Below are positions 13,146-39,705 of a stretch of DNA of 43,828 nt, piece by piece (positions within the stretch are counted from its first letter, which is position 1; each line of letters starts with the position of its first letter). Under the pieces are notes generated by a model. It did not search any database and had not been told where the DNA came from. It saw nothing but the letters and a program-made list of their open reading frames with translations. Source of the stretch: Gammaproteobacteria bacterium (GTDB lineage: Bacteria > Pseudomonadota > Gammaproteobacteria > GRL18); assembly GCA_026196615.1 (NCBI GenBank), contig JAPHSW010000051.1:1-43828 (forward strand), written 5' to 3'. A program made the position numbers and the translations under genes.

Positions 13146-13403
13146 ATGCCTATCATCGACTGGCCGGAAGCCGAACGTCCCCGTGAAAAATTATTACGCC
13201 GTGGTGCTAATGCACTCACTGATGCAGAGTTACTGGCTATTTTTTTGCGTACGGGAAGCAAAGGTATCACTGCAATTGATTTAGCCTATAAATTATTAAA
13301 CAATTTTTCTTCTTTAAGAAATCTCTTTAATGCCAACCTGGAAGATTTTTCACAAACAAAAGGGGTAGGCCCAGCCAAATATGTACAACTACAGGCAGCA
13401 TAA
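13146..13403 (+). pseudogene. radC: radC, 5' part only, interrupted by the island
   Basis: The first 85 codons match Rad[30 protein letters not shown], and the helix-hairpin-helix end [13 protein letters not shown]. Full RadC proteins are about 220 aa, with a C-terminal JAB/MPN metalloprotease-like domain containing an HNHPSG-type motif. That domain is absent here and elsewhere in the window. Reading stops at a TAA supplied by the foreign sequence just after the conserved LQAA. The start at 13146 has GGAG 6 nt upstream. Insertion by a mobile element is the simplest explanation. radC is a known target of Tn554-type elements in staphylococci. Confidence 0.93.
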
Positions 13404-13410
13404 TTTCCCC
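13395..13410. other. Left junction of the island (attL candidate)
   Basis: Homology to RadC ends at about 13397-13400 (codons for LQAA), and sequence after it is unrelated and AT-rich. The left boundary therefore lies within these few bases. The matching attR and the 3' part of radC were not found in the window, so the exact core duplication cannot be given. Confidence 0.75.
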
Positions 13411-13547
13411 TACTTTTCAATTATTATAAATAAAAACCTAACATATTGATTTAAATATTATATTTTGATTAATTTACCCACCTCATCTTGTTGCCAATTA
13501 TCATTTAGTGTTATGCTAATAAAAAATGACAAAAAAAGGTTATCAAA

Positions 13548-15884
13548 TTGCTCAAGACTGAAACGATTTCAAACTATCCTATCAATCGAATCAATGAGTC
13601 ATTCCAGCAAAAATGGGGTGATATTGCAAAAGCTACAGAAAGTAGGACTACTCGAAATGCCGTAATTAAGGTACTGTCAATTTTAAATGCCTTTTGTGAT
13701 ATCACTCACACCGAAATAAATCTTATCACGCTGAACAACCAAAACACGTATCAATCTTTTCAGAAAGCTTTTATTGGCTTTCTATATAAAGAGTTTGATA
13801 TAAGCAAAAGAAATCAATATAACCTGGTCAGATACGCTTTAAATGCTTTTTCATCCTTATCTGAACATTTAAATGTAAACACTATCAATCTTCAACTATC
13901 AGCAAAACAATTATCTGAAGATGTAAAAGAGTCGATTAAGACTTACGAAACCAATTATAGTGTCAATCAAGAACGCATGACATTTTATGAAGGCTGGTCA
14001 GTTGCTAACAAAGAAGATTCACCTCACTGGCTTAATTTAATTGAATTTTACAATAGTTATGGGATTGATTTCACAACACAAACCCATAATGCTTTTAAAA
14101 AAATGGCTATCAAAGAAGCCAAAATAACACTGGTCAATAAAATTACTCTTTTCAATTCATTACGAATGAGTTTTCTTCATTTATTTCCAAAGCTCGATGA
14201 TTTTAAGGCTGCAATGCGTGCAGATATTCAGCACAAAACGATGCTGTTCGTTTATAACTTGCAACTTATGCAAGCACAATCAAACAAACACGATTTAAAA
14301 TCGTTTCATAAGCAATGGAGAGAAAAAATAACTGTATTTGAAGAAATATTTGTAAAACACAAACTGGTTCCAAAGCCATTAATTGATTTGCCTGCACCTG
14401 AATTTAAAACGTCAACAAAAGGAAAATCAAAAACACGAATCGATAAAATTGATCAGGATGGTAATGCTTTTAATGACAAACTCATCACCCGTGTACCGCT
14501 CTCTTACAGTGATGATGAAGCAAAAGAGGCTATTTTTGAATCAATTATACTTGATATAAAACATGTTGTTTATCATTGTAAAACTTTAGTTGAAGAGACT
14601 ATGTTACGCTATGAACGTTGTCAAGAGCTTAAGACAGCCGGTAAAGTAAAGAAAAATTTAGGTCCAGGTATTAACAATTCTTTTGATATGAGCTTAGATA
14701 AAAATGTCTGCGCAACCTTTTATTATTACGGTTTTCAGTCCTCAGTATCGAATTATTATCTCCAGTTTTTAGGTCACACGGACAAAAGCGAAAAATTAAA
14801 TAACTTACTCTGCTTGCCAAAATCTTATCTACTTTACCCTTTTCTTTATTTGTTAGTGGAACAACATCCAGCCATTACGGATTCCTGGCTATTAAATTGG
14901 AAATTATTCGATAAAAACGGTCGAAGAACAGGCTTTAAACAAGTCAACAATGTCTGGGTAGCAGTGAGTTTTAAAAAACGAAAAGGCAAGCAAAAAGCAC
15001 AGCAGACGATTACGCTAAATGAAACGTCCAAAAAATTGATTGAACAAATTATTGACCTTACGGCATACGCAAGAGACTATTTGAAAACACAAGGTGATGA
15101 CAACTATCGGTCAATGCTTATCAGTGTGAGAGGCGTGAATTCAAAACCGACAGCAATAAATCAAATTGAAAAGCTAAATAGATCAGATGTAAATATTGCG
15201 CTATCAAAAACCATGATTCAACAATCACCTTATCGCGATAAAGACTATGCCAGCAATATTATTAATTCGTTAAGCATCACTACCATGCGGGCCAGTTGTG
15301 GCGTCCGAGTGTATTTAGAAACCAACTCTGTGCATAAGATGGCGGAGGCGCTGGGTCATGAAGAATATAAACCACAGCTTATTAATCACTACTTACCCAA
15401 GCCGCTTTGGGATTATTTCACCAACCGTTGGGTGCGTTTGTTCCAGAATGCGATTGTCTATGAAGCAATGAAAGATTCACCTTACCTGTTTGATGCCATG
15501 GATATCAATGAAGACGAACTCGAACAGTTTTTAGCAAACCATCGACTAAAAGACATACCCGATATCATGCGCCGCGCGAAGCAGCGTTCACAGCAGATTG
15601 AGAATGACTTTGATTTTAATGAAGCAGCACTCTTGGTATCCCCCCTCTTGCTTCAAGTGTTTTTTACAGTCGTAAATTTAGTTGAAGCCAATGAAAAAAT
15701 TACTGATGTTGCCCAGCAGTTTTATACCACCGCTAAATTTGTGTTAACTCATATTCAACTGGCGATAGAAAAAGATAAAAACAGACCAGAGCTAACCGTT
15801 GGTAATGATATTATGGCAATGTATCAATTTGCAAAAGATAACCCACTAGACAAATCTATTCTCGAAGGGGCTATTTTATGTTAA
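13548..15884 (+). CDS. Large divergent tyrosine recombinase-like protein (mobility module gene 1)
   Basis: The first gene of the module encodes 778 aa. Its C-terminal part resembles a tyrosine-recombinase catalytic domain but is incomplete. SITTMRASCG (576-585) has the second Arg (R581) with Thr in place of the usual His. ALGHEEYK (601-608) keeps the GH box, and Tyr615 is near the position of the nucleophile. A basic KKRKGKQK hairpin (476-483) could hold the Lys. No TGxR-type first Arg was found. It may be a structural or targeting partner rather than a catalyst. TTG is the likely start, with AAAAAGG about 9 nt upstream. The stop overlaps the next start by 7 nt. Confidence 0.78.
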   Translation: MLKTETISNYPINRINESFQQKWGDIAKATESRTTRNAVIKVLSILNAFCDITHTEINLITLNNQNTYQSFQKAFIGFLYKEFDISKRNQYNLVRYALNAFSSLSEHLNVNTINLQLSAKQLSEDVKESIKTYETNYSVNQERMTFYEGWSVANKEDSPHWLNLIEFYNSYGIDFTTQTHNAFKKMAIKEAKITLVNKITLFNSLRMSFLHLFPKLDDFKAAMRADIQHKTMLFVYNLQLMQAQSNKHDLKSFHKQWREKITVFEEIFVKHKLVPKPLIDLPAPEFKTSTKGKSKTRIDKIDQDGNAFNDKLITRVPLSYSDDEAKEAIFESIILDIKHVVYHCKTLVEETMLRYERCQELKTAGKVKKNLGPGINNSFDMSLDKNVCATFYYYGFQSSVSNYYLQFLGHTDKSEKLNNLLCLPKSYLLYPFLYLLVEQHPAITDSWLLNWKLFDKNGRRTGFKQVNNVWVAVSFKKRKGKQKAQQTITLNETSKKLIEQIIDLTAYARDYLKTQGDDNYRSMLISVRGVNSKPTAINQIEKLNRSDVNIALSKTMIQQSPYRDKDYASNIINSLSITTMRASCGVRVYLETNSVHKMAEALGHEEYKPQLINHYLPKPLWDYFTNRWVRLFQNAIVYEAMKDSPYLFDAMDINEDELEQFLANHRLKDIPDIMRRAKQRSQQIENDFDFNEAALLVSPLLLQVFFTVVNLVEANEKITDVAQQFYTTAKFVLTHIQLAIEKDKNRPELTVGNDIMAMYQFAKDNPLDKSILEGAILC

Positions 15885-18262
15885 CGCTGGTTAAAAGCGA
15901 GGATAAACAGCTTGTTGATGCCATACAATCAGGCAAAAAACACATTAACAACTTCAATGAAGAGGATTTTGAACGATTTAACAAACTTGTGGCCAATATG
16001 CCTTTTGAGGTTGTCAGCGATTTGCTTCAAAAGTCGGTCATGCCTGCCGTACCGATACTGCAATATGATGAACAACATCCTGACTGGTTTGATGACGATA
16101 CTCAGTTCTCAGATAACATTTGGCACCTCTCTCTTAAGCTGGACAGAAAAATCTGGAAAAAAACCATTGATTTTAATCGTGTCGTCTTAAATGATGGCAA
16201 AAAATTAACACTGAAGAAGCACCAACCTTTGTTAAACACGCTAAAAAAATGGCTTGTTGTTCAAGGTCATCCCCTGTACAACGGCGGAAGGATTTTAAAA
16301 CCTGTAACCATTAAAGGTAAACTCAACAGAACACTTCATTTGATTGATGCCCTGTTAATTAACGCAGATGCGATTAAATTGGCGCAGCGTCATATGCATG
16401 CAATTAATCACGACCTGATTATAGATATTTTGTCGCGGCTAGATAGGGGCGTTGCAAACGGGTTGTATCAATTCAATGCCAAATTAACAGATTATTTGCT
16501 CAATAATATCAGTTGCATTTCAGATGAAGAAGCCCATGATTTTACAAAGACATACCCTTATTTGAAAAGCCCCTTATTAGCTGACGAAAAGGTATTACCC
16601 TTATCTCAGGAACAACGCATTAAGGCTTGTTGTTTTTTGTTTCAACAAGGGGCTTATGATAGAACTAATAGGGCGGCAGCTAATACTCCAATTAACACCT
16701 GTCTGGCGTCCCGCTTTTTCTCAAACACCCTAAATGGTGAATCACTAACCATACCAGTGGTAGAACAATTGCGCATTAAAGCGTCAACGGAAACAACTGA
16801 ATACCCCGCCGTTCCAGTGACGGCGAATGAAGATGATAGTGTCACAGAGACATTGATTAGCCAATATCTCTCAATATTCAAGATGCTTGGCGTATTGAAT
16901 AGTAAGGATTTAAGCAAGGTCAACCCAGATATTTTTGATAAGGTCAGCATCAAACAAGTGGCTGAACACAGCACTATCAAATCGTCAGGCCGATTTAATA
17001 CTTTACCAGTGAATATTGTCTTTAAAGCGATGAAAGATGCTTTTGAGTTTGCATTTGAATACATGGATATTATTTTGGAAACGGCCTACACCCTCGCCCT
17101 AAACGCTCCTAAAAACAACAAGAAAATCACTTATAACAATAAACAGATATGGGCCTTAGCCAAGTACAAACAAGTTGACTATTTACAATACATACCTAAG
17201 AAACTCAAAGCACTCGGCGTGACACAATGGTCAGTGAGTAACAATGAAACAGAGCGTTTTGCGATGCGTCGACAAAACCAGGGATTTTGGGACTTATATG
17301 AGGTATTAATCGCCAGTATTCAGGTGCTTGTTGGGGCAGCCATGGCACGGCGTCAAAGTGAATTTTTAGATTTGCATCCAACCGATTGTTTATTGCCCAA
17401 AGGTATCGACCCCAACGATAAAACCTCCAGCATGCTTGATTTTGAGTTGGTATTCGATAACCGAAAATCAGGCACGGGCACCGTCCGCGAACAGTTGAGT
17501 AAACCAATATTACGCAGCATTGCCGGATTCATTTATAAACTGCAAAACTTTAATACCAGGCTTGTCAAGGCCAAGCTGATTAAAAAAAATAAGGCTGATT
17601 TATTCCATCATTTTAATACACAGACTGCAAAATTTAGTTTTGTAAGCCTTAGGATGAATTACAATCAGCGGCTAGACGCCTTTTGTGATTATTTTGAAAC
17701 ACAAACCGCTGCATACCAATCAGCCGATGATGTCAGACGCTACTATATTCGACAACACCAACTGCGCAGATTTTTTGCCATGGTGTTTTTCTGGTCAAGT
17801 GGTTATGATGGACTAGATACACTTCGCGAATTTCTGGGCCACACGGACTCTGAGCATTTGTATCATTACGTGACCGAAGGTATTCCGGGTGAAGTTCTGG
17901 CCAGTGTTAAAGCCCGCCGCATCAAAGACAGTCTTGGTAAAAATGATATCGAGAACATTGAAAAACTGGGCTTAATTATACAACAAGCCTTTGGTGCGAT
18001 ATCAGTCACCTTTAAAACCTACGAGTTGATTCTTAAACAGTATGAAGACGATGCAAAAGAGGGTTATATAGAGGTACAACCTTCAATGGATGAAGTTAAA
18101 AAACAATTTGAACAAGAGCGTATCGCTTTTGAGCAAGATATCACGCGACTATTGCTTGATCATACCATTGACTTACAACCGGAGTTTTTCACGATTAAAG
18201 ACATCGATGGTAACGACATACACGATTATAAATTGGTGCTAAAAGTGAAGGAGCTAGAATGA
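15878..18262 (+). CDS. Large tyrosine recombinase/integrase (mobility module gene 2)
   Basis: A 794-aa protein with a long N-terminal region and a C-terminal tyrosine-recombinase domain that keeps the whole catalytic set. The first Arg is in MARRQSE (491/492), Lys530 in FDNRKSG, HQLRR supplies His627 and Arg630, GHTD supplies His655, and Tyr664 lies nine residues further on, the normal spacing. It should be able to cut and rejoin DNA. The ATG overlaps the stop of the preceding gene and its own stop overlaps the next start, so the four genes are translationally coupled. The size recalls TnpB of Tn554-type elements, but family membership is not established. Confidence 0.88.
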   Translation: MLTLVKSEDKQLVDAIQSGKKHINNFNEEDFERFNKLVANMPFEVVSDLLQKSVMPAVPILQYDEQHPDWFDDDTQFSDNIWHLSLKLDRKIWKKTIDFNRVVLNDGKKLTLKKHQPLLNTLKKWLVVQGHPLYNGGRILKPVTIKGKLNRTLHLIDALLINADAIKLAQRHMHAINHDLIIDILSRLDRGVANGLYQFNAKLTDYLLNNISCISDEEAHDFTKTYPYLKSPLLADEKVLPLSQEQRIKACCFLFQQGAYDRTNRAAANTPINTCLASRFFSNTLNGESLTIPVVEQLRIKASTETTEYPAVPVTANEDDSVTETLISQYLSIFKMLGVLNSKDLSKVNPDIFDKVSIKQVAEHSTIKSSGRFNTLPVNIVFKAMKDAFEFAFEYMDIILETAYTLALNAPKNNKKITYNNKQIWALAKYKQVDYLQYIPKKLKALGVTQWSVSNNETERFAMRRQNQGFWDLYEVLIASIQVLVGAAMARRQSEFLDLHPTDCLLPKGIDPNDKTSSMLDFELVFDNRKSGTGTVREQLSKPILRSIAGFIYKLQNFNTRLVKAKLIKKNKADLFHHFNTQTAKFSFVSLRMNYNQRLDAFCDYFETQTAAYQSADDVRRYYIRQHQLRRFFAMVFFWSSGYDGLDTLREFLGHTDSEHLYHYVTEGIPGEVLASVKARRIKDSLGKNDIENIEKLGLIIQQAFGAISVTFKTYELILKQYEDDAKEGYIEVQPSMDEVKKQFEQERIAFEQDITRLLLDHTIDLQPEFFTIKDIDGNDIHDYKLVLKVKELE

Positions 18263-18804
18263 TGAACAAAGCAGACATTAATGAGCGCTCGGTAAAGGCG
18301 ATTAAACAACTGCTGCTTGAAATCATTGAAGCGCCTGGCAAGTTTAATAGCGAAGATTTTGTGACGCGACTTAAATCCCAAGGCGCACTGGCCAAAATGG
18401 AAAATTTAGAACGAGGGATTGTGCCTTGTGTTTTGAATACCCAAAAAAACGTGGCAGAGCGTATATTCGATGATGGCTTTGATACCCTTAATACCCTTCG
18501 AAATAATGCGTTGATGGCCTTAGAGGGCTTTGAGCAAGCAAATAAAAGAAGTAATAAGACAACCAAAACCGGCTTACAAAAACGCGTCAAAGAGTTAGAG
18601 AATAAAATTGATTTACTCGAACAACAAAACTTCATGCTCATTGATTTGGTAGACATGCTTAAATCGAGCCTAGAACATAATGCAAAGGAAAATGGCAATG
18701 AAACCATGCGCTTTAATGTAGAACATGAACTCAAATCACTAAGAGCGAAAGCGTCATTTACTCAAAATAAGGTGCTAATACAAAAGGTGCATGATAATGC
18801 ATAA
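18259..18804 (+). CDS. Small coiled-coil accessory protein (mobility module gene 3)
   Basis: A 181-aa, highly charged, helical protein with a clear heptad-rich segment at about residues 113-140 (KRVKELENKIDLLEQQNFML). It has no membrane segment, enzyme motif or cysteine cluster. By position and type it resembles the small accessory proteins of multi-recombinase elements, such as TnpC of Tn554. A role in synapsis or directing strand exchange is an inference. It overlaps the preceding gene by 4 nt and the following one by 8-14 nt, so it is made together with the recombinases. Confidence 0.8.
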   Translation: MMNKADINERSVKAIKQLLLEIIEAPGKFNSEDFVTRLKSQGALAKMENLERGIVPCVLNTQKNVAERIFDDGFDTLNTLRNNALMALEGFEQANKRSNKTTKTGLQKRVKELENKIDLLEQQNFMLIDLVDMLKSSLEHNAKENGNETMRFNVEHELKSLRAKASFTQNKVLIQKVHDNA

Positions 18805-20191
18805 AGAACAATTGGTTCATATCCACAAACAAGCATTTGAATTTTGGGATATTTACAGTCCAATTGACCGTCAACTCAAGACGAAAATGCTTCAAGGTAT
18901 TCCTTTTATTCGCTGGCCTGATGATGTGCCTTGTATCGAGGCAAACTTATACATGTTGACACTAGGTCGCACTCATAGGCCAGAGACACTGAAAACCTAT
19001 GCGTACAATATATCTCATTTATTGCGATATTGTTTTAGTAATCAAATGAATATTATTGATTTAAAAGATGCAAACTTTGAGCTTTTTATTCGAGGGTTAC
19101 AGGCCGCAAGAGATATTAAAAACGAAAGAGCTAGAGAGAATGATCAAGTCATAAAGATAGGTCGAGCGTGTATCGATTTTTTGAAATTTATCGCAACAAT
19201 GCATTCATTAAAACATTTCATTGGTGAAGAAGATTTTAATGCCATCCAAATAATTGAAAAAAAATACAGTCGACCGGTAGAAGGTCGCAAAAAACCAATA
19301 ATAAACTATTACTGGTCTCATGATTCATTTCCAAAACCTAGTGAGAAAAAGATACGCCATCCCATTGCTAATAACACAGTTAAGGCGATTAAGAAATATG
19401 TGAATGGTCAAGCCGATTCAGATATTGTCACTCGTGATTTTTGTTTAATACAGACGTTTGAGCAAACGGGGGCTAGAAGAGTAGAGATAGCTGGACTAAA
19501 AGTAGAAGATGTCCAGGAAGCATTAAATAACAGTATCGGTCTAACCAAATCAATGCTCAAACTTCCTACAGCCAAGCGAAGAGACGACATTACAGAGCGT
19601 ATTATGCCAGTTCCGCGAGTACTTATTGATAATTTAATGAATTATATTAGAAGGGTACGCAGAAGAATTATAAGAAATACAATAGGTAAAGCACATGACC
19701 ATGGCAATGTCTTTATTGCCCACACAACAGGCAATGCCATTGATGTAGACTACTTAACAACGTTGATTAGTACCTGGCGTAAAAATATTGGCATCAAAGA
19801 ACAATGTCACTGGCATTTGTTCAGACATGCTTTTGTGACAAATAAATTTATTGATTTAATTTATGAACACGACTTTGAAAATAAAGATGAATTTAGAAAA
19901 GCATTGTTTAATACCGAACGATTTAAAATGCAGATCAAAGAGTGGACAGGACACACTAATTTGTATTCATTAGATACGTATCTTGATTTAGCATTTGCCA
20001 GCGTGTCAGGCGCTGATGTGACCTATGACAGCGTCATGTTTAAATCATCGGTTGATGCCTATGTTGATACTTTAAACATGTTAGATATACGCAAAAAAGA
20101 AAAAAGAATATCTGAGGCCGAATACCAAAAAGAGATGATTAGACTTACAACTGAATTTAAAGAAAGTAGGTCTATGAATCACACAAAATAA
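18791..20191 (+). CDS. Tyrosine recombinase (mobility module gene 4)
   Basis: A 466-aa tyrosine recombinase with a complete active site: TGARRVE (Arg229), CHWHLFRHAF (His342, Arg345, His346), EWTGHTN (His388) and LDTYLDL (Tyr397, nine residues after the His). The N-terminal part (about 50-150) looks like a core-binding domain of the SAM-like type. It is the last gene of the coupled four-gene unit. It starts inside the end of the coiled-coil gene, at 18791 or the in-frame ATG at 18797. It probably acts with the 794-aa recombinase to insert the element into radC. Confidence 0.92.
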   Translation: MIMHKEQLVHIHKQAFEFWDIYSPIDRQLKTKMLQGIPFIRWPDDVPCIEANLYMLTLGRTHRPETLKTYAYNISHLLRYCFSNQMNIIDLKDANFELFIRGLQAARDIKNERARENDQVIKIGRACIDFLKFIATMHSLKHFIGEEDFNAIQIIEKKYSRPVEGRKKPIINYYWSHDSFPKPSEKKIRHPIANNTVKAIKKYVNGQADSDIVTRDFCLIQTFEQTGARRVEIAGLKVEDVQEALNNSIGLTKSMLKLPTAKRRDDITERIMPVPRVLIDNLMNYIRRVRRRIIRNTIGKAHDHGNVFIAHTTGNAIDVDYLTTLISTWRKNIGIKEQCHWHLFRHAFVTNKFIDLIYEHDFENKDEFRKALFNTERFKMQIKEWTGHTNLYSLDTYLDLAFASVSGADVTYDSVMFKSSVDAYVDTLNMLDIRKKEKRISEAEYQKEMIRLTTEFKESRSMNHTK

Positions 20192-20696: not shown

Positions 20697-23600
20697 ATGA
20701 TACCTGATCAGAGTCATATAAATCATATCCGTGAAGCTCTTTGGCAAAGCAATAGTAGTTCGGCATCAGTTATGATCGGGGCTGGCTTTTCACGAAATGC
20801 CAGAAAAGTAGAACCAGGTCGAAATGAATTTCCCTTATGGCATGAAGTTGCCAAATCATTATGCACAAAGCTCTATCCTTCTAATGATGGTGATTATTTC
20901 AAAAAAGCAATACAGGAAGCCTCAGGTACAAGCGGATTTCTCAGTCTTGCTCAAGAATTTGAAGTGGCATTCGGACGAGTTGCCTTACATAATCTTATAC
21001 AGGAAATGGTGCCAGATGAGGACTATGCACCTGATGATATTCATGCACGTTTATTAAAGTTACCATGGAATGATGTTTTTACTACTAACTGGGATACACT
21101 TTTAGAGCGGACTCAACCATTAGTTCTGGAGAGTAACTATGAGGTAGTACGGACCAAAGAGGAACTACTGACGGCTCAAAAACCCAGAATAATAAAGCTA
21201 CATGGTTCATTTCCAGCCTTTACCCCTTTTATTTTCACAGAAGAAGATTTTCGAACCTATCCAATTAAATTTGCGCCATTTGTAAATACAGTACAACAGG
21301 CAATGATGGAATCTATTGTATTGCTTATTGGTTTTTCAGGAGATGACCCCAATTTTCTTCAATGGTCTGGATGGGTTCGTGATAACTTAGGTGAATCAGC
21401 CCCCAAAATATATCTGGCGGGATGGCTGGCTCTTTCTCCTCATCGTCGTAGAATGCTCGAAGCAAGAAATGTTGTACCTATTGATATTTCTAAACACCCT
21501 AATGCTAATGAATGGCCTGAACAGCTACGCCACCAATATGCTACTGAGTGGATCTTACATACCCTTGAGCGTGGTCGTCCCTATGATGTTACTAACTGGC
21601 CTTCTCCGCTGGACTGGAAGAATGAGGAAGTACCTGATTTATTGCAACCTGTTGAAACGGTAACGATAAATGCGCCAATAGATGAAATTCGTGTACCAAC
21701 AAATATAGAGAAGAATAAAAAACATCCAGAGTTGGTGCGTACTATAATAGAAAATTGGGAGCATAATCGAAAGGTTTTTCCTGGCTGGTTGTTTATTCCT
21801 TACCCCAAGAGTCATCATATAAACCGATCAACCAGCGAGTGGGAAAATATAATCATTCAGACTATTGCTGATTTCCCTGTGAATGAAAAATTACTAATCC
21901 TTAGAGAATTGGTTTGGAGAAAGGAGAAAATATTAGAACCACTTAATGAACAGCTGGTTTTAGTCATTAAAGGTGTTCTTGATGAAATCGACTGCCAAAA
22001 ACGTACTATATGCGGTGCAGAAGATAAATCGGTTAACTGGGCTTATATTCGTAAAATATGGGCTGGTTTAGTGCTTGCTCTTCTGACGACAGCTCGGCAG
22101 TGTTTTGATAAAATGACTTTTAATGCTTATCTGGAAACACTTCAACCCTTTCTGAATGACCATATTGATATTGCTCAACGTTTACATCATGAGAATTGCC
22201 TTTGGGCATTAAATAATCTCGACTTTGCTGCTCTTGAAAAGTTATTAAAAGAATGGTCACCTGAAAAAGCAGATCCTATCTGGATGATGAGAAAAGCCTC
22301 AATATTAATTGAAACAAATCATCCAAATGAAGGGATACGGTTACTGAACCAAAGCTTATCCATTGTTAGAAAAATACCAAAAAACAATAGTAATCTTGCG
22401 GCTCCATCACGTGAGAGCTGGATTTTGTGGCTGGCATTAGCTTTTGAGCATAAATTTTCTGACTTGATAACAGAAAACATGGCAGTCCCTTCGGTCTGGA
22501 AACGCTGGGAGCAATTGACCGCGTTGCAGTGTAATGCATTTGATCAAAAACGGGTACTTCGTGACAAAATTCATGGAGATAATAAAAAGATAGAATCACC
22601 TCTTTTTAATCTGGGAGCTCGTCGAGGAACAACGTTTCAGATTTCAAATGGGATTGATGAAAAGCTGGCAGCCAGTTATCAGGCTATACGAATGTCTGAA
22701 ATCACTGGTTTGCCACCTTCAGCATCACACACAGTACTTGCCAGTGAGCTTCTAACACTGGCTGCAATCCAACTCGCTTCCACTGATTATAAATTAGCTT
22801 CTCGTTTAGCTCTTCGTTTAGCCAGTTCTGAAGAGGATGACATATTAAATAATATTTGGTCTCGTACAAAGGTCGCTTCCCTAACAAGCGTTGAAGTAGC
22901 TGCTTTGGTGGATATTACAAGCAAAATTATTAATTATGCTCTTCCTAAAGTTTCAGAGCCTGGTTCAATATGGGTTACTCGCCTTCGTGTTGCAGTAGAG
23001 GCTCTGTCGCGTCTTGTTTTGAGATCATCTCAAGATCATGCTGTGGATGTCTTAAAACGGGGACTCCAGTTTTACAAAATGGAAGTGTTTATAAAGGAAT
23101 TTTGGTTGCACTCTGCACTTGATCATTTACTAACTCGTTCCTGGGAAGCTTTATCTATAGATTATAGAGAAAAATGTATCACTGATATATTGAGTGCACC
23201 CATTATGGGCATTGATGGTTTTGATCTTATGGTGGATAGATATCCTGAACCAGGCAACTTATTAACCAATAATAATGAAGAGAATCCTGTACCATCTCGA
23301 ACAGCAGAAACAGAAGAGCTTTGGGCTGAAATTGTCAAACTGATTTTACGTGGCTTACGTGCTGGTGGTGAACCCCGAAAACGAGCAGCAACAAGGCTTG
23401 CTCAGCTTGTTTTCTGGAATATTATTAACGATGATGAAAAAAAACTAATTTCAGACGCTCTCTGGCAAACTCAAAACACTATTAAATCACTCCCTGGAGA
23501 CACTAATTTGTTTGATTGGGTTTTTCTATTATGTCCAGAGCCTGAACCAGGCGTGGCAGATCAATATTATAGAAAAAAATGGCTTGAAGCTCCTATCCCG

Positions 23601-24440
23601 AAAAATGGAATACACCTAAACCAATATTTCTGGCAGCTTGGAAATGCCATTATTAGTCTAAGAAGCAGCAAGTATCCGTTATTATTATCAGAAGAAGAAC
23701 ATTTGTACGTTACTAATGTTATTGAGCAGTGGGCAGACATGCCCATTGAGTCAGATGATCAGTGGGGACAAAGGTATAAATCATCCGATGCTATAGAAGG
23801 CTTGCAAACTATACTTCCTGAGATAAATTTAGATATTGCTATTGCAAAAAAAATATATGATAAGACAAATCTTATGAACCAGTCTGATTCGTCAACGTCA
23901 GGATTTCGATTATTTGCAGGTTTGACCAAATTATTACCAGATAAAATAAATGAAATAACTGTTTCAATGAGAATGGGTCTTGCTTCAGATAAAATGAAAG
24001 TTTCAGAAGAAGCAATATTGGGTTTGCATTCATGGTTAGTTATCGCATCGAAAGAGAGTCCACAAGGAATTATGCCACCAGACGATTTGATTAGAGAGAT
24101 TGGTGTAATCATTGCCACTCGAAGAAAATCTCTGTTAAACCGTTCACTACAGCTTGCTCTCTGGATTTTCGCTAATGGAACTGAAGAACAATGTGAACTC
24201 ATTGTACAACTTGTTCTTCAGGGGTTGAAATTTCTAATTGAAGAGTTACGCTATGATAGGGAGCCTGATGAAAATATTGATGTACCTTTGCTGCGTTGGG
24301 GATGTGCTCATTTGGCATTAGCAATGTCAGAGGCAGGTTACGATACAGATCCTACAGTAATACAATGGAAAGAAATTACCACAAATGATCCGCTTCCAGA
24401 GGTTCGTCATGCAAAACAAACTTTTCTAAAAACAAGCTAG
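20697..24440 (+). CDS. SIR2-domain anti-phage protein, defence-associated sirtuin (DSR)-like
   Basis: The N-terminal 230 residues are a SIR2-type NAD-binding domain: VMIGAGFSRNA (25-35), FTTNWDTLLER (128-138, catalytic-type Asn131), IKLHGSF (166-172, His169) and IGFSGDDPNF (211-220). The remaining 1000 residues are mainly helical and repeat-like, with no Walker A motif. In known defence sirtuins of similar layout, phage sensing by the C-terminal part triggers NAD depletion and abortive infection, and that role is inferred here. The 1247-aa length exceeds the roughly 1000 aa of DSR2. The missing NTPase argues against a SIR2-STAND (Avs5-type) protein. The Shine-Dalgarno sequence is poor. Confidence 0.85.
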   Translation: MIPDQSHINHIREALWQSNSSSASVMIGAGFSRNARKVEPGRNEFPLWHEVAKSLCTKLYPSNDGDYFKKAIQEASGTSGFLSLAQEFEVAFGRVALHNLIQEMVPDEDYAPDDIHARLLKLPWNDVFTTNWDTLLERTQPLVLESNYEVVRTKEELLTAQKPRIIKLHGSFPAFTPFIFTEEDFRTYPIKFAPFVNTVQQAMMESIVLLIGFSGDDPNFLQWSGWVRDNLGESAPKIYLAGWLALSPHRRRMLEARNVVPIDISKHPNANEWPEQLRHQYATEWILHTLERGRPYDVTNWPSPLDWKNEEVPDLLQPVETVTINAPIDEIRVPTNIEKNKKHPELVRTIIENWEHNRKVFPGWLFIPYPKSHHINRSTSEWENIIIQTIADFPVNEKLLILRELVWRKEKILEPLNEQLVLVIKGVLDEIDCQKRTICGAEDKSVNWAYIRKIWAGLVLALLTTARQCFDKMTFNAYLETLQPFLNDHIDIAQRLHHENCLWALNNLDFAALEKLLKEWSPEKADPIWMMRKASILIETNHPNEGIRLLNQSLSIVRKIPKNNSNLAAPSRESWILWLALAFEHKFSDLITENMAVPSVWKRWEQLTALQCNAFDQKRVLRDKIHGDNKKIESPLFNLGARRGTTFQISNGIDEKLAASYQAIRMSEITGLPPSASHTVLASELLTLAAIQLASTDYKLASRLALRLASSEEDDILNNIWSRTKVASLTSVEVAALVDITSKIINYALPKVSEPGSIWVTRLRVAVEALSRLVLRSSQDHAVDVLKRGLQFYKMEVFIKEFWLHSALDHLLTRSWEALSIDYREKCITDILSAPIMGIDGFDLMVDRYPEPGNLLTNNNEENPVPSRTAETEELWAEIVKLILRGLRAGGEPRKRAATRLAQLVFWNIINDDEKKLISDALWQTQNTIKSLPGDTNLFDWVFLLCPEPEPGVADQYYRKKWLEAPIPKNGIHLNQYFWQLGNAIISLRSSKYPLLLSEEEHLYVTNVIEQWADMPIESDDQWGQRYKSSDAIEGLQTILPEINLDIAIAKKIYDKTNLMNQSDSSTSGFRLFAGLTKLLPDKINEITVSMRMGLASDKMKVSEEAILGLHSWLVIASKESPQGIMPPDDLIREIGVIIATRRKSLLNRSLQLALWIFANGTEEQCELIVQLVLQGLKFLIEELRYDREPDENIDVPLLRWGCAHLALAMSEAGYDTDPTVIQWKEITTNDPLPEVRHAKQTFLKTS

Positions 24441-24998: not shown

Positions 24999-27900
24999 AT
25001 GTCACAATCACCTGAACTTGCTGGCGGAGAGGGTTTCACCTTTGAAGGAGATGCTGCTGCATTTTATCTCAGCGCGCTGTTAGCCGAAGCATATGCACCT
25101 GGCATCGATGATCGAGCAGTTGTTCAAGTGTCGGTTCAGCAGCGCGACTTTGGCGAACCGCTCGATGATGTGATCGTCGATTTTGAAGACACCATAAAAG
25201 AACTCGCTCGCCTTAGCCTCCAAGTTAAGCGTTCGCTAACGATCAGCAAGGCAAAAACGAACAAAGACTTTCGTGAAATCATCCGTGACAGTTGGGCCAC
25301 CCTTAAAAAGTCTGACTTCCGTATCCATGTCGACCGCTACGGGGCAGCAGTTGGCACGGTCAGCTCTGCCAAAGAACGAACGCTCAAGACCCTTTGCGAT
25401 TGGGCCCGTGAAAGTTTGACGGCTGACCATTTCGATGCTCGCTTTGCAAAGGGCGGCAGTGCTAGCGACACTATCAAAGTGGTCAAGAACGACATCGTTG
25501 CCCTACTGGAAGAGGTGAAGGGGACACCGTGCACGAGTAAAGAAGTTCATCAGTTCCTTGCGCACTTCGTGCTCATCCAATTCGACTTCCTTCGCGAAGG
25601 TGCCATTGATCCCCCTGATGCCATTAATCGCATCCGAGACTGCCTCGCATCCGATGACGCAGCTAAGGCCCCCCTCGTCTGGTCGCGGGCTGTTCAGTTA
25701 GCCCGCGCATCAGCTGGCAAATCAGGTCAGTTTGATCGCACACGGCTTGTGCGCTTAATCTCACCAATTACACGTCTTCGCGGAGCGACCTCCTTAAGCC
25801 TTGACCTCGATAAGTTGACGGACCTCGCAAATAGCTACGCGAACCTTATTCCGGACGATGTCGGAGGAACGAAGCTCGACCGAATTTCGCTCCTTGATAA
25901 CCTGGATGCAAAGCTCACTAACGCCCGAGTTGTCCAAGTCCGTGGTCTACCAGGAAGCGGCAAATCAGTCGTGGTTAGGAGAATGGTACAACGCGCACTA
26001 GAACTCGGGCCGACCCTCTTTCTCAAAGCCGAACAGCTCGAAGGCACCAGCTGGATCAGCTATGCAACCTCACAGGGTCTATCGAGTGTTCCTCTGGAGC
26101 AACTTCTCGTGGAGATCGCTGCCACCGGCACTCCCATTCTCTTCATCGATGCAATCGATCGCATCGAGAAAGAACACCAGCCTATTATACTTGATCTGAT
26201 TCACACCATCGTAAATTCACCGCTGCTTGATAACTGGCGCATCCTCTTCTCACTTCGCGACACCGGCATTGAAGTACTTCGCAATTGGTTAGGCGAATTC
26301 CTTGATGTCTTGAAGATCGAGATGCTTGACGTTGGTCAGCTAAGTGACGAAGAGGCAGAGACGCTCGCAAAAGCTAAACCACATCTGAGGCCGCTTCTGT
26401 TTGGATCAGCCCAGATGAAAGAGATTGTTCGACGCCCCTTTTTTGCAAAGGTGCTGAACCAGAGTTACGTGGCTGCCCGCAGCGCTACAACATACGCTCC
26501 CCAATCTGAAGTCGATTTAATTGAGAATTGGTGGAGGCGCGGCGGCTACAATGAGACAGGACAAAGCGCGATTGAGCGCCAGCGCGCGCTGCTCGATTTG
26601 GCGCATGTTCGTGCCCGGCAACTGAGCCAGCCGATTGGCCTTAGCCAGCTCACCTCTGTCGCACACATCGATGACCTAATATCGGACGGTATACTCCAAA
26701 ATGTCCGTGAAGGGGTCTCCGTCCGCTTCGCTCACGATATCTTCTTCGAATGGACTTTCTTCCATGTCCTAGCTGATCGCGGACCACAATGGATCGATGT
26801 GATCAAGACCTGCGGCGAGCCACCGGCGGTCGCGCGCGCCGTCGAACTCGCTTCCCAGTGGGAATATGCGCAGGGAACAGATTGGTCGGCATACCTCGCC
26901 CAAACCGAGGCGTCGGACCTTAGATCTCAATGGCTTCGAGCATGGCTGGTCGGCCCACTAGGAACCGCAAGGTTCGAAGCTGAAGAGGACCAATTCGCGA
27001 CGTCCGTCTTTGCCGACGATTTCTGCCTTTTTAGGAAGACGCTCGTCTGGTTTCAGGCTGAGAAGACCACACCGAATGAGAATATCCTTGCTGGTGAACT
27101 CCCACAGGAGCAACGCCAACGGTTCGCTGATCTTCTCGGATGGCCTTCCGACTTCTCCACGTGGCGTCGCCTCATCGCCTTTATCCTCCGACATATTTCA
27201 GATATTCCGCAGAGGCTCTATCCAGAGCTCGTCGCTATTTTCGAGGTCTGGCAAAATGCCCTAGCCGATCTGAGTAACCCGACGTCTCAAGCTCTTCTGC
27301 AACAATGCGCTACCTGGCTAGCTGCCATCGACGCAGTCAGTACCGCCAAGGGGCCTGATGAGAACTCCGCTTACTGGGAGAAGGTGCCCAGCTTGAACGA
27401 TTTCCGAAAATCTCTTGGCCAGCTCCTCTTGAGATCATCAAGAACCGAGCCGACCCTTGCCGCTGACTATTTGCTGCGGGTCACCAACTCAGAGCGCATT
27501 CGTGAAGATGCATTTCATGATATCATCACCTACTCACTCATCCTCGCCCAATCGCTGCCCCAGTCATTAGTCAAGCTTTCTCTGGCATTCCTACTTAAGG
27601 AGCTTCCGGACGACCAAGTTGCTCGTGAAAAGAAGGAACTTCATAACGCGGCTGAGTGGCGCAAAAGAATACAGGCCAAGCCTGAATCAGAACGCTCGCG
27701 TCAAGAAGAAATGGCGCTTTCGGGTGTGTTTCATCTGCAAACCATCGGTGATTTCAGCTACCACGAATGGGAAAGGCTTTCGATCCACGACGACTACCAG
27801 AACTTCTGGCCTCCTTCGCCGCTTCGAGAGCCCTTTCATTCACTTTTCCAATCATCACCCAGCGAAGCATTGCGGCTCCTTCGGGAACTATGCAATCACG

Positions 27901-30365
27901 CGATGTTCGCATGGCAACAGCTACATCATCACTCACGCGACCGTGGCGGCACCCCTATACCGCTCGTACTGACGTTTCCCTGGGGCACCCAAAAGTTCTG
28001 GGGCAACGAACAGGAGTACCTTTGGTTTCGGTCAACGAATGCGCCAAAGGTCATTGGCAGCGGGTTTATGGCTCTTGAGGAGTGGTGCTTCGCCGAGCTT
28101 GCGCGCGGCCGGCCCGTTGACGATCTACTCCAACAAATCGTTGAGGGGAACGAATGCATCGCCATCCTGGGCATCGCGTCGACGCTCGCGATCCACACAG
28201 AGACGGTGTCCGAAGTAACTTTGCCCCTCTTCACCTCACAGCGCCTGTTGGCTGCAGACTATAACCGAATGGCGCAAGACCTTTCGTCAACATCAAACCT
28301 TATCGGTTTCACGAGTAGCACCGATAAGCCCCACATTGAGATGATTCAGACAGCAAATGCTAGGCCTGTCCGTAAGACACAACTTCGTTGGATGGTACCT
28401 AGATTCGTCTTTGCGACGGAGCCGCTACGTGACCGAGCCCGCGAAGCAATCCTCAATTTCAAGAACAATCTGCCCTACGAGTATGAAGAGCACCGCGACA
28501 TTCCAGAAGTGCAGGCGTACCTCACAGCTCAGGCCCTCGAATATGCCGAGTTGGCGGACCCGGAAAACTATCAAGCCTTCCGCACCAAAGAGGATTCAGA
28601 TCAGATTGCGATTGTCCACGTCAGCCCTTCTGCTGCTAAGCCTGAAAATATTGCTAGGGCTGAAGAGGCTTCTAAGTACCTTAGGCAGACGGGCCTTTGG
28701 ACGTGGGCATCCAAGTCCTTCGAAAGCCAGACACTGAACGAAACCTACAAGGTAGAGGATGCCATTGCATTAGCCAAGGAAGCAGACTCCAGCAACTTAT
28801 TTGAGCACTCGAAGAATGAGAATGAAGAAGAGCAGTTGGGAATGCGTCGTGGTGCAGTCACCGCTACCGCGGCCATCGTGCTCAACTTTCGAGAAGGGCG
28901 CACACAAGAAGACCTTGAGTGGGCTCGCGATATCCTAGGGCGCGCGATCCTTATGCCAGAAAAGCCTAATCTGATGCGGTCACCTAGTTCCATCATCCCA
29001 TGGCATCAGGCTATCTACGTGGCGCGAGGCCTTGCATCAGATCTTCGCGAGGGTACAGCGGTGCACGGCGTGGCTCATGACTTCCTTGGGTTGATTGCAC
29101 ACCCACTTGAAGCCGTTTCATTGGCCACAGTCGAAGAAGCTTGCAAACTTTGGTCTCAGGATTCCAAGCTGACTTGGGCCGCGCTGAACTTGGCATTTTC
29201 TCTCTGCCACGTTCCTCCAAGTCCGCGCGATAAACTCCGTCAACGCGGTAAAGTGCTCCACTTGTCAAGTGAAGCGCAAGCGGAGGTCGATGCGGCGCTT
29301 GCTTTCTATGAGAACGGAAGCGGGTGGCCTTCCTTTCCCTTACCGCCCCCAGCCTGGGTGAAGCTCGAATCAGAGAAGGGTCGTACTTGGCATCAAAGCC
29401 ATGAAGAATACGATGCGAATGAAGTGTGGGTAGAACCCGATGTCTTCTGGCACTCAAAGCAGGCTGCAAACATCCTTGAGCGCATTCCCTTCGACAAGAT
29501 GCTGAATGGTGGCACGAAGAACACTCTTCTCGACTTCCTCTCCGGTGTTCTGGATTGGACCAATCAGAAGAATGAACCGCCTTGGGTAAATCCAAGACGC
29601 CGAGATCATTCGACGACACACATCTTAGAATGGACCCACAGCCTAGGATCAAATCTTGGTAGGATAGCTGGGCTTCTCCCACTTAGCGAGTTTCAGACCC
29701 GCTTTCTCGAACCAATATTGAGGCTCGAGGGCGATAATTGCTGGACTCTTCTCTCTCCATTCATAAGCACCTACATCTGTGCCTACGTGTACGATGCGCC
29801 AGTAATACCAGTGGACGCAGTCGCGACGCTTGACCTCTGTCTTGACCGGTTTCTACAGGCATCAGCCTTCAAGCGCAACAATTACCGGAGCGGAGAATTC
29901 TCAGGCTTCGAACAGCCCAAGCTTGTTCGCACGTTAATGTTTGTGTCGGTCGAACACACGGCTCTGGCTGCTCGCTACGTCAATGGTGACTGGTCTGAAA
30001 TCAACCTCATCGTACCCCTAATTGATCGTTTCGTTCGTGCTGGCGGTTGGGCCGCTTCTGTTATGGACCCGTTCTTAACACTCTGTGAGCGAGCCAGGGC
30101 CAACTATCCATCCGAAGCTTTTGCAGACCAAGTACTCTCGATTATCGATGACGGCCCCGACAACTTAAAGGGGTGGCATGGAACGTTCATTCCAGCACGT
30201 ATTGCTGAGCTGGTGCAGTATTTCGCACATCGTGATACTCCAATGAAGCAGGCTCTGGCTCAGAAGTTCCTGCGAATTCTCGACATGCTGGTCGATATGG
30301 GCGACCGGCGAAGTGCGGCGCTTCAGCTTAGCGAGGCGTTCCGCGAGACTTGTTTGCCTTCCTAA
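24999..30365 (+). CDS. Giant STAND-type NTPase with candidate N-terminal nuclease (Avs-like defence protein)
   Basis: This is a 1788-aa single protein. The N-terminus (about 10-80) runs FTFEGDAAAFYLSALL, then LDDVIVDFED (55-64), then LSLQVKRS (72-79). That resembles the D...(E/Q)xK core of Cap4/Mrr-like PD-(D/E)xK nucleases. A P-loop NTPase follows, with Walker A RGLPGSGKS (315-323), Walker B ILFIDAIDRIE (380-390) and a downstream SLRDTG arginine segment. The long helical C-terminus is probably the sensor. This matches antiviral STAND (Avs) proteins that bind a phage protein and become active nucleases. The gene is visibly GC-richer than its neighbours, suggesting a separate origin. AGG lies about 5 nt before the ATG. 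Confidence 0.8.
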   Translation: MSQSPELAGGEGFTFEGDAAAFYLSALLAEAYAPGIDDRAVVQVSVQQRDFGEPLDDVIVDFEDTIKELARLSLQVKRSLTISKAKTNKDFREIIRDSWATLKKSDFRIHVDRYGAAVGTVSSAKERTLKTLCDWARESLTADHFDARFAKGGSASDTIKVVKNDIVALLEEVKGTPCTSKEVHQFLAHFVLIQFDFLREGAIDPPDAINRIRDCLASDDAAKAPLVWSRAVQLARASAGKSGQFDRTRLVRLISPITRLRGATSLSLDLDKLTDLANSYANLIPDDVGGTKLDRISLLDNLDAKLTNARVVQVRGLPGSGKSVVVRRMVQRALELGPTLFLKAEQLEGTSWISYATSQGLSSVPLEQLLVEIAATGTPILFIDAIDRIEKEHQPIILDLIHTIVNSPLLDNWRILFSLRDTGIEVLRNWLGEFLDVLKIEMLDVGQLSDEEAETLAKAKPHLRPLLFGSAQMKEIVRRPFFAKVLNQSYVAARSATTYAPQSEVDLIENWWRRGGYNETGQSAIERQRALLDLAHVRARQLSQPIGLSQLTSVAHIDDLISDGILQNVREGVSVRFAHDIFFEWTFFHVLADRGPQWIDVIKTCGEPPAVARAVELASQWEYAQGTDWSAYLAQTEASDLRSQWLRAWLVGPLGTARFEAEEDQFATSVFADDFCLFRKTLVWFQAEKTTPNENILAGELPQEQRQRFADLLGWPSDFSTWRRLIAFILRHISDIPQRLYPELVAIFEVWQNALADLSNPTSQALLQQCATWLAAIDAVSTAKGPDENSAYWEKVPSLNDFRKSLGQLLLRSSRTEPTLAADYLLRVTNSERIREDAFHDIITYSLILAQSLPQSLVKLSLAFLLKELPDDQVAREKKELHNAAEWRKRIQAKPESERSRQEEMALSGVFHLQTIGDFSYHEWERLSIHDDYQNFWPPSPLREPFHSLFQSSPSEALRLLRELCNHAMFAWQQLHHHSRDRGGTPIPLVLTFPWGTQKFWGNEQEYLWFRSTNAPKVIGSGFMALEEWCFAELARGRPVDDLLQQIVEGNECIAILGIASTLAIHTETVSEVTLPLFTSQRLLAADYNRMAQDLSSTSNLIGFTSSTDKPHIEMIQTANARPVRKTQLRWMVPRFVFATEPLRDRAREAILNFKNNLPYEYEEHRDIPEVQAYLTAQALEYAELADPENYQAFRTKEDSDQIAIVHVSPSAAKPENIARAEEASKYLRQTGLWTWASKSFESQTLNETYKVEDAIALAKEADSSNLFEHSKNENEEEQLGMRRGAVTATAAIVLNFREGRTQEDLEWARDILGRAILMPEKPNLMRSPSSIIPWHQAIYVARGLASDLREGTAVHGVAHDFLGLIAHPLEAVSLATVEEACKLWSQDSKLTWAALNLAFSLCHVPPSPRDKLRQRGKVLHLSSEAQAEVDAALAFYENGSGWPSFPLPPPAWVKLESEKGRTWHQSHEEYDANEVWVEPDVFWHSKQAANILERIPFDKMLNGGTKNTLLDFLSGVLDWTNQKNEPPWVNPRRRDHSTTHILEWTHSLGSNLGRIAGLLPLSEFQTRFLEPILRLEGDNCWTLLSPFISTYICAYVYDAPVIPVDAVATLDLCLDRFLQASAFKRNNYRSGEFSGFEQPKLVRTLMFVSVEHTALAARYVNGDWSEINLIVPLIDRFVRAGGWAASVMDPFLTLCERARANYPSEAFADQVLSIIDDGPDNLKGWHGTFIPARIAELVQYFAHRDTPMKQALAQKFLRILDMLVDMGDRRSAALQLSEAFRETCLPS

Positions 30366-35244: not shown

Positions 35245-35706
35245 TTAGCTCAAGTAATCAGTAATGGAAGTCACCACTGATCGGATAGATATCCCAAGCC
35301 AATGAGACTTTCTTCCTTGAATCAGCAAGACCATGGGGCGAGCAGGCAATGTTTTTTCCCACTCATGGATGTCGATTGAAGAGGGGATCGGGTAGTCCTC
35401 AGGGTGGGTATGCCATTCGCCTACCCAAGTTTGTATTTTTCCTGATGAGTGCCATGCAGATAACACAGAGTTTTGGTGGTGAGGGCTTCGACGATCAAAG
35501 CTAAAGCGTGTGCTTCTATCAATCTGACCTGGTCTTGTTGCACCTACCACCCGAATATGGTGATTCCCTCTATATTCGCCAATTAAAACACCTGCTGATT
35601 CGGTATCTAGTGTTGAGATTTGTTTTAACGATTCGATTATGGACATTGCTTGCGCCTCTATTAAGAGAATACCTTCGTTCGGAATTTTGGCGATTACTTC
35701 GAGCAT
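35245..35706 (-). CDS. cap3: CBASS Cap3, JAMM/MPN isopeptidase
   Basis: A 153-aa Mov34/MPN protein. The JAMM zinc-protease motif is complete: Glu44 in GVLIGEYRG, then His99 and His101 in EWHTHPEDYP, then Ser109 and Asp112 in SSID. In type II CBASS, Cap3 removes the CD-NTase from Cap2-made conjugates, limiting or recycling activation. It is the last gene of the minus-strand capV-cdn-cap2-cap3 operon. I place the start at the ATG at 35706, which overlaps the end of cap2; an upstream TTG (35715) is possible. It should not be mistaken for the missing radC C-terminus, which has a related fold. Confidence 0.93.
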   Translation of the reverse strand: MLEVIAKIPNEGILLIEAQAMSIIESLKQISTLDTESAGVLIGEYRGNHHIRVVGATRPGQIDRSTRFSFDRRSPHHQNSVLSAWHSSGKIQTWVGEWHTHPEDYPIPSSIDIHEWEKTLPARPMVLLIQGRKSHWLGISIRSVVTSITDYLS

Positions 35707-37415
35707 ATGGGGCAATTACTTAGAGATGAGAGTTTTTGGTTTTTTACGGATAACACTTGATCGGAAAATCTGGTTTGCATAAATGTTGGTCCGGGTTGTG
35801 AGCACAGCTGTTGAATCATGCCAGCGACGGCGAGGCTTGGTTGAGAGTTAAATGGCAAGTAGGTTTTTCCGCACCCTCTTCGAAATTGCTCCGAATGTTC
35901 AGGGGCATGACCTGACTTGAACAGTTCAAATCTAGGTTTTCTAGTATTACCATTTTGGATAGTTAAGCAACCAAAGCAAGCTGACCCATCATTGTTGAGT
36001 AAGGCCCGCGAGGCTAAGCCGTAAGCATCAATCCAGCCATGAATTAAAATCGGCCTTTTTGATTGCCACTGTACGTCATGTATCCAGCGAGATAAACTTA
36101 AGGAGAATTCACTATGGCCTGTTGCATCTATAATAATGTCCCAGCGTTTACCAATATCTTCTCTGTAAAAATTGTTGTGGTTTACAATACTATTGGCGAG
36201 CCCTTGATTATCAAGGAAATGCTTCAGCGCCGAGGACTTTTGCTCTTGCAGATATTCGATGCCAAGAAGGTGTCGGCCTAGATTTCCTGGTCCGAGAATG
36301 TCATCATCAAACAAATGCAGCTCGCCTGAAGTTCCTGAGCCGGCTCCAATTTGCACTAATGCATGAGCTGCGTAGCCACCGATAGTCCCGCATCCAATTA
36401 ATGCAATCCTCTTGCCGTCAAGCCCCAAGTCATTTTGACTGCTTTTATTGCGCTGAATTAGGAATGTGTCAGATACATCCTGTACAATACTTCTTGTAAA
36501 GGATTTCGTTAATTTAGCTAGACTTGAGGCCATCTGATTTATGTTGTGGCGTTTAGCTGACGAGTTTTTTCTCCGCTTCTTTTTTGGTTTTAATCGTTGA
36601 ATAATCGGCATGGCATTTTTGGTAATGTCAACAAAAAAACCAATGTCTTCCGCTTGATGCCTGAAGCTAATAAATACCATCCCCTTTTCATCAATGTATT
36701 TAATAATTTTATGTATTAGGGAGCTTTTTGCATGAAGGTCTATATTAGACAGCCAGTTTAGAAACTCGCTAAATGTTTTAGGGGGCCAGTCAATGTTGTG
36801 AGGCACAAATGGAGGTTGTCTAAAATCGACAGGAATAAAAATCCCGGTGATAAGCTGTTTTACGCCTTTTCGCCTATTTATCCATGAGTCTGCGTCATCG
36901 GAAGTATTTGCGAGTACAATTTCCGTCTCTTCTTCTCCGCAAATAGAGTGACGCTTGTAAAACGTATATATACCAATTGTTCGTTCTTTACTGACATCAA
37001 ATACTTGATATTCTCCTTCCCAATAAGATGTTAGCTCATGCTGAAAATCTTGGGAAGTCACTTTGTCTTCACTCCACTCTTGAACGCGTGTTTTAATTGC
37101 TTCAACAAATGTTGCAAGTGTCGTCTCCAGATCGATGATCCATAAGCTAGTTGTCTCATCGTCCAAATAGCAAAGCGATTTATCACTGTTTAAATGAGGA
37201 AGAAATTTATTTTCGAAGGCAGAAGGGAGTTCAACAATATACGCTTTGGGGTAAGGTGTGAGTTCTTCATTAATGCCTTCAAGTCGGACAGTGACAGGTC
37301 CGGAGGCTGACTGCACCGTACCAATAAAAGCCTGCTCAAAATTTGGTGGATTCCTCTTTGGGATATAGCCCAAGCTCACCATACACTCAGTCAGTTGTTT
37401 TGAATCGAATGCCAT
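35694..37415 (-). CDS. cap2: CBASS Cap2, E1-E2 fusion that conjugates the CD-NTase
   Basis: A 573-aa fusion of an E2-like N-terminal domain and a ThiF-type E1 C-terminal domain. The E2 candidate cysteine is Cys82 in SLCYLDDETTSLW. The E1 adenylation loop is IALIGCGTIGGYAAHAL (337-353), with FDDDILGPGNLGRH (369-382) for nucleotide binding. Cys515 in RRGCGKTYLPF is the probable E1 catalytic cysteine. CxxC pairs at 480/483 and 568/571 probably hold zinc. By analogy with characterised type II CBASS, it adenylates the C-terminal glycine of the nucleotidyltransferase and attaches it to a target. It overlaps its neighbours on both sides. Confidence 0.94.
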   Translation of the reverse strand: MAFDSKQLTECMVSLGYIPKRNPPNFEQAFIGTVQSASGPVTVRLEGINEELTPYPKAYIVELPSAFENKFLPHLNSDKSLCYLDDETTSLWIIDLETTLATFVEAIKTRVQEWSEDKVTSQDFQHELTSYWEGEYQVFDVSKERTIGIYTFYKRHSICGEEETEIVLANTSDDADSWINRRKGVKQLITGIFIPVDFRQPPFVPHNIDWPPKTFSEFLNWLSNIDLHAKSSLIHKIIKYIDEKGMVFISFRHQAEDIGFFVDITKNAMPIIQRLKPKKKRRKNSSAKRHNINQMASSLAKLTKSFTRSIVQDVSDTFLIQRNKSSQNDLGLDGKRIALIGCGTIGGYAAHALVQIGAGSGTSGELHLFDDDILGPGNLGRHLLGIEYLQEQKSSALKHFLDNQGLANSIVNHNNFYREDIGKRWDIIIDATGHSEFSLSLSRWIHDVQWQSKRPILIHGWIDAYGLASRALLNNDGSACFGCLTIQNGNTRKPRFELFKSGHAPEHSEQFRRGCGKTYLPFNSQPSLAVAGMIQQLCSQPGPTFMQTRFSDQVLSVKNQKLSSLSNCPICSK

Positions 37416-39624: not shown

Positions 39625-39676
39625 CCTTGTTCTCCTCGTTTTGGCTGCCAAAACTTTTATACGTATGCTTGACAAT

Positions 39677-39705
39677 ATATTAGGGTAGATGCCAGAAAGT
39701 GTCAA
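39677..39705 (-). promoter_or_regulatory. Promoter of the CBASS operon
   Basis: On the minus strand TTGACA (39705-39700), a 17-bp spacer and TAATAT (39682-39677) form a near-consensus sigma70 promoter. The leader to the TTG start of capV is about 50 nt. The -35 box lies inside the first copy of the operator repeat, so a bound repressor would block it. Confidence 0.85.

Follow-up and report, generated by a model that had tools for sequence, protein, structure and literature searches.

What kind of element is formed by four overlapping genes, two of them encoding complete tyrosine recombinases, that lie directly downstream of an interrupted radC? The window in which this question arose, a stretch of 43,828 nt, comprised contig C242 in full; the draft genome to which it belongs measures 4.96 Mb. 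The features concerned are as follows, with coordinates in the window unless stated otherwise.

13146..13400, plus strand: 5' part of radC, the target gene, ending in ..KYVQLQA, directly upstream of the module
13399..13404, plus strand: attL core CATAAT, 6 bp of foreign sequence that separate native CAGGCAG from the left end of the element
13405..13420, plus strand: left terminal motif C (TTCCCCTACTTTTCAA)
13548..15884, plus strand: gene D (tfp-like), 778-aa protein of tyrosine-recombinase fold, TTG start
15878..18262, plus strand: gene B (intB-like), 794-aa tyrosine recombinase, full R-K-H-R-H-Y
18259..18804, plus strand: gene S (srap/ginD-like in place and size), 181-aa protein predicted to be all-helical
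18791..20191, plus strand: gene A (intA-like), 466-aa XerC-like tyrosine recombinase, full R-K-H-R-H-Y
Contig C203 of the same genome (L010:16934-17359), minus strand: 3' part of radC

The four-gene module and its active sites

The four genes occupied nt 13548-20191 on the plus strand with overlaps of 7, 4, and 14 nt, in agreement with a sequence-only reading made earlier, which had described the four genes as overlapping. That reading had also assigned full R-K-H-R-H-Y sets to two of the proteins, and these were confirmed as R492-K530-H627-R630-H655-Y664 in B and R229-K262-H342-R345-H388-Y397 in A, no residue deviating in more than two of 72–76 relatives. Its description of the 778-aa D as degenerate was only partly apt: the first Arg and the His of HxxR were missing, but K476, R581, and Y615 were invariant in 69 of 69 relatives and H604 was kept in 68 of 69. 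In the AlphaFold model of D (pLDDT 82, pTM 0.49), the 21 best PDB fold matches were all tyrosine recombinases (Cre, Tre, XerH, and Xer-type kin), although these matches were weak, with a best E of 0.035. The predicted structure of S was all-helical and included one helix of 43 residues; a fold search with it matched nothing meaningful. A PDB sequence search with B returned no match, and D, B, and S received no name in Pfam and NCBIfam searches.

Insertion into radC and ends of the element

The insertion into radC is real, with the 5' part of the gene on C242 and the 3' part on C203. The matching 3' part on C203 contained the only RadC catalytic domain of the genome, in which a search for a second radC copy found none; intact radC was present in genomes of the same genus, e.g. 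caggcgGTATTGGAAATG. The left junction read CAGGCAG-CATAAT-TTCCCCTAC and the right junction, on C203, ATAGGGAAA-TATTGG-AAATG, where the native core TATTGG represents attR; thus, the native 6 bp were kept at the right and a foreign 6 bp stood at the left. The counterpart of motif C on C203, designated C', was TTTCCCTATTTCC in reverse complement, and the C/C' pair taken by itself in the window was weak and not significant (P about 0.09). The right end on C203 (TTGACAATATTTA...GGGAAA) aligned with the right ends of related elements in comM of Vibrio, an alignment equalled by 0–1 of 1000 shuffles, and this match to the right ends of the family described below ties C242 and C203 together. The element, split over two contigs in this draft genome, therefore extends from nt 13399 of C242 to the radC junction on C203 and measures at least about 33 kb (30.4 + 2.4 kb).

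radC is known as a target of the Tn554 family. As the usual target of the family described below it was rejected, only the member in this window being located there. Islands transduced by jumbo phages and carrying RadC and IntY (PMC12595487) were also considered as relatives and were rejected, being a different system with a single integrase.

Distribution and gene order of the family

A pattern scan based on an alignment of B homologues was applied to 84,980 genomes and yielded 93 confirmed loci, 80 of which were kept; among 369 genomes sampled throughout the class there were almost no relatives. Gene order was read by applying HMMs of the four proteins to these loci. All of the complete, uninterrupted modules (73 of 73) had the order D-B-S-A on one strand, mostly with overlaps or tiny gaps, the remaining loci being cut by contig ends or containing broken frames. 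This uniformity of order and strand indicates that the four-gene set is not a chance assembly, and it answers in the affirmative the earlier question of whether the four genes occur together; as the loci were collected through B, the co-occurrence is that of B-found loci. A plasmid search with D returned the same records as strong B matches.

The gammaproteobacterial hosts included Vibrio, Photobacterium, Pseudoalteromonas, Colwellia, Pseudomonas, Stutzerimonas, and Acinetobacter, together with bins assigned to Legionella, Coxiellaceae, and Methylococcaceae; the betaproteobacterial hosts were Paucimonas, Methylophilus, Methylotenera, Polaromonas, and Noviherbaspirillum. One module, with proteins of 786, 707, 192, and 473 aa, was common to a Providencia IncT plasmid, in which a class A beta-lactamase gene adjoins it, and to genomes of Neiella, Thalassolituus, Acinetobacter, and Colwellia, the upstream 230 bp being identical in at least three of these. 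This distribution points to a recent spread of the module across orders.

Target genes, junction scars, and replacement copies

Left ends of the family were located in radC (the window), comM, hrpB, cinA, phoH, hemB, mscS-like, rarA, and topoisomerase genes, several of which were named from translated motifs only. All 10 comM hosts had both halves of the gene, and the elements were about 9–36 kb where they lay on one contig. The right junctions in comM were constant (AAA-ATGCCN-GAATTT), with a core one base off the expected native codon, so that the core limits may be 1–2 nt off; the left junctions varied (ACGTTCTT, ATGCCATA, ACTTTTGT, AGGCATGA, ATTTCCCA, CTCAACGT, CTTAACGT, TTTGTGGT, and TTAATTTT). 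In hrpB, 14 left junctions (attL) carried 14 different 6-mers, often partly equal to the native core, and nine right junctions (attR) kept the native TT[CT]CA[CT], with E. coli HrpB as the native reference. Hence, the radC insertion, ten in comM, and fourteen in hrpB all had a variable foreign stretch of about 6 bp at the operon-proximal end and kept the target bases distally. In SE, the target bases are kept at the intA-proximal end and the foreign bases stand at the other end (PMC10214605); relative to the operon, the scar of the D-B-S-A family is therefore mirrored.

A complete hrpB was present besides the two fragments in all 16 hrpB hosts examined, mostly near the hrpB fragment at the right end of the element (members L217-L246). 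The target site in the complete copies was recoded, the native FDEFHERSLDAD being replaced by FDEYHLRNLDSD or FDEFHLRNLDAD and the like, and the complete copy is apparently an insertion-proof replacement. Members in phoH (L063, L112), in a topoisomerase gene (L049), and in some other targets likewise contained a relative of the gene that they split (13 of 70 loci, within the DNA examined around each), while the comM hosts and the genome of the window, examined for replacement copies of the target gene, had none. Such replacement genes would illustrate how islands can afford to break housekeeping genes.

Relationship to SE, GInt, and other multi-recombinase elements

The SE modules used for comparison were taken from plasmids and Pseudomonas genomes, in both of which the order intA-tfp-intB-srap was confirmed; the GInt modules were those of loci L183 and L189-L193, one lying directly after ssb, as published; and the GMT modules were gathered with the GmtY model. 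In profile comparisons (hhalign), A matched SE IntA with a probability of 99.7 (E 3.8e-27) and GinA with 97.9, B matched SE IntB with 96.4 (E 1.2e-9), and D matched SE Tfp moderately (83.0). The values for S were not significant (5.5 with Srap and 30.7 with GinD), the similarity to Srap lying in size, place, and helical fold. The control pairs IntA-GinA (98.7), Tfp-GinB (95.1), IntB-GinC (95.7), and Srap-GinD (86) showed that SE and GInt are collinear, whereas the D-B-S-A family has its IntA gene last. HMMs of SE and of the family cross-matched for A/IntA only. In a tree of IntA-type proteins, the family, SE, GInt, and GMT were separate, with branch support of 100/99 for the family, 99–100 each for the family, SE, and GMT, and 93/85 for GInt. 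The multi-recombinase islands represented by SE, GInt, and GMT thereby gain a fourth well-supported clade, found in both Gamma- and Betaproteobacteria.

The family resembled SE (Tn6283/SE-6945 type) in having two active recombinases, a recombinase-fold protein without the full motif, and a small coiled-coil protein, all encoded in an overlapping operon at one end, as well as in its inverted end motifs, a core of about 6 bp with foreign bases at one end, conserved genes as targets, and, in some members, a gene copy that replaces the target (bcp in SE). It differed in its order, tfp-intB-srap-intA, in forming a separate clade with betaproteobacterial members, in an S not recognisable as Srap, and in the foreign core, which is distal to the operon in SE. 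GInt, several of which are situated at ssb, shared with the family a four-gene operon for three recombinase-type proteins and a small protein, site specificity, and defence and other cargo, but their order ginA-B-C-D places the IntA-type gene first and they form a clade of their own. Lys, the second Arg, and Tyr were nearly invariant in 15 Tfp proteins of SE, as in D, and for these proteins at least the published view that the RHRY residues are absent from Tfp is only partly correct.

Two further candidates had been put forward in the sequence-only reading, namely the Gamma-Mobile-Trio (GMT) and recombinase-in-trio (RIT) elements. Kinship with GMT did not extend beyond a distant likeness in the recombinase domain (A versus GmtY, probability 89), and membership was rejected by NCBIfam, gene order, and profiles alike: the GmtY model NF040693 had no match among the window proteins, the order in GMT is GmtY-GmtZ-GmtX with a GmtZ of 860–1385 aa, and D, B, and S showed no similarity to the GmtZ and GmtX profiles. 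RIT kinship fared no better, since RIT are described with three full-length recombinases and no small partner (PMC10214605), whereas in the family D lacks the first Arg and the His of HxxR, and S is present. A GMT or RIT element with an extra gene would share the style of overlapping recombinase genes and the defence cargo, and GMT operons likewise stand at one end of islands rich in defence genes, but this explanation is regarded as highly improbable. The reading was correct in setting the locus apart from phage-type integrases and from the three-gene Tn554: it is a multi-recombinase integration module with four co-occurring partners. Tn554 also has two recombinases and a small protein, TnpC, and a similar behaviour of a 6-bp core (PMC10214605), but consists of TnpA-TnpB-TnpC without a Tfp-type protein and is distinguished from the family by this description.

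The proposal of an unnamed class was upheld in part. SE and GInt are described systems of the same composition; the order, the clade, the betaproteobacterial members, and the mirrored scar appear to be undescribed. In the 2023 survey of SE, neither Tfp nor Srap homologues were reported from Betaproteobacteria, nor was the order tfp-intB-srap-intA (PMC10214605), which suggests that the D-B-S-A family was absent from it. The family is apparently a widespread, undescribed cousin of SE and GInt, a statement from which later or subscription papers could differ.

The strongest competing explanation is that intA was relocated in an SE or GInt that has diverged but whose mechanism and polarity stayed unchanged, so that the junction pattern would be a mere matter of how the ends are labelled. 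It accounts for the equal composition, the homology that profiles showed for three of the four proteins, the inverted ends, the core of about 6 bp, and a replacement copy like that of bcp in SE-6283 (PMC9345347). Against it stand the separate position of the four groups in the IntA-type tree, the restriction of HMM cross-matches to A/IntA, the existence of betaproteobacterial members, and the variable core found operon-proximal at radC, comM, and hrpB, where SE keeps target bases (PMC10214605); it is considered unlikely, though a serious contender. That the locus is a decayed, immobile remnant without present function would suit the sole member found in radC, in a draft genome where a second radC copy was not found, but the four frames and the catalytic residues are intact, both ends are preserved, and modules that are nearly identical occur in different orders, on plasmids as well as on chromosomes, all of which makes it improbable. 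The four genes thus very probably constitute the tfp-intB-srap-intA recombination module of an integrative element that is site-specific for conserved protein-coding genes. More tentatively, and with somewhat less than even confidence, the family may be a separate class of transposable tyrosine-recombinase island whose circularisation has a strand polarity opposite to that of SE, in which operon permutation and strand choice are coupled and which targets housekeeping genes, in part with an insertion-proof copy.

A Pseudomonas set of four genes (420-836-709-169 aa; L188:1905-8508), with the IntA-like gene first and the IntB-like gene third, was covered fully by none of the SE, GInt, and D-B-S-A profiles and may be a further variant.

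Proposed mechanism

We infer that D-B-S-A elements transpose. Most likely, A and B would carry out catalysis at C and C', the inverted motifs of the two ends, and D and S, made in a fixed ratio through translational coupling, would be their partners in assembly or DNA binding. Mainly one strand would be exchanged, and the resulting circle would include, at its joint, about 6 bp of host DNA from beside the element. Integration would leave these carried 6 bp next to the operon, with the 6 bp native to the target at the far end; for target genes whose disruption matters, the element would bring a complete copy with a recoded target site. Knock-outs in SE and GInt have shown that all four genes are required in those systems (PMC10214605, PMC5385486), and by analogy we infer the same need here, together with the circle, copy-out/copy-in, and the strand bias. 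The mirrored scar suggests two possibilities: the distal flank may be the source of the joint core, or integration may put the carried core at the opposite end. Two systems with equal parts, permuted order, and mirrored scars amount to a natural experiment, in which the question of which subunit sets the strand exchanged becomes testable.

Cargo genes

Downstream of the module, the window contained the following cargo, which amounts to three defence systems.

20697..24440, plus strand: DSR2-like SIR2 anti-phage protein, below the NCBIfam cut-off for Dsr2
24999..30365, plus strand: Avs4-like large protein, partial match
35245..39705, minus strand: CBASS, with JAB (cap3-like), E1-E2 (cap2-like), DncV-type cyclase, and patatin phospholipase

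The GC content of the Avs4-like gene was 53%, compared with 32–44% elsewhere in the window, and this gene was therefore probably acquired from another source than its neighbours. A DDE transposase within the cargo (31308-32879) was broken into two frames. Among the large cargo proteins of other members, six of ten matched defence families, the matches comprising type I, IIG, and III restriction, JetC, a HamB-type helicase, and Ppl. Since they carry many such systems, D-B-S-A islands help to explain the spread of anti-phage systems. In an E. coli plasmid, a GInt located right after ssb (L190:2188-11794) carried avs4 directly behind ginD, a placement resembling that of the defence cargo in the window.
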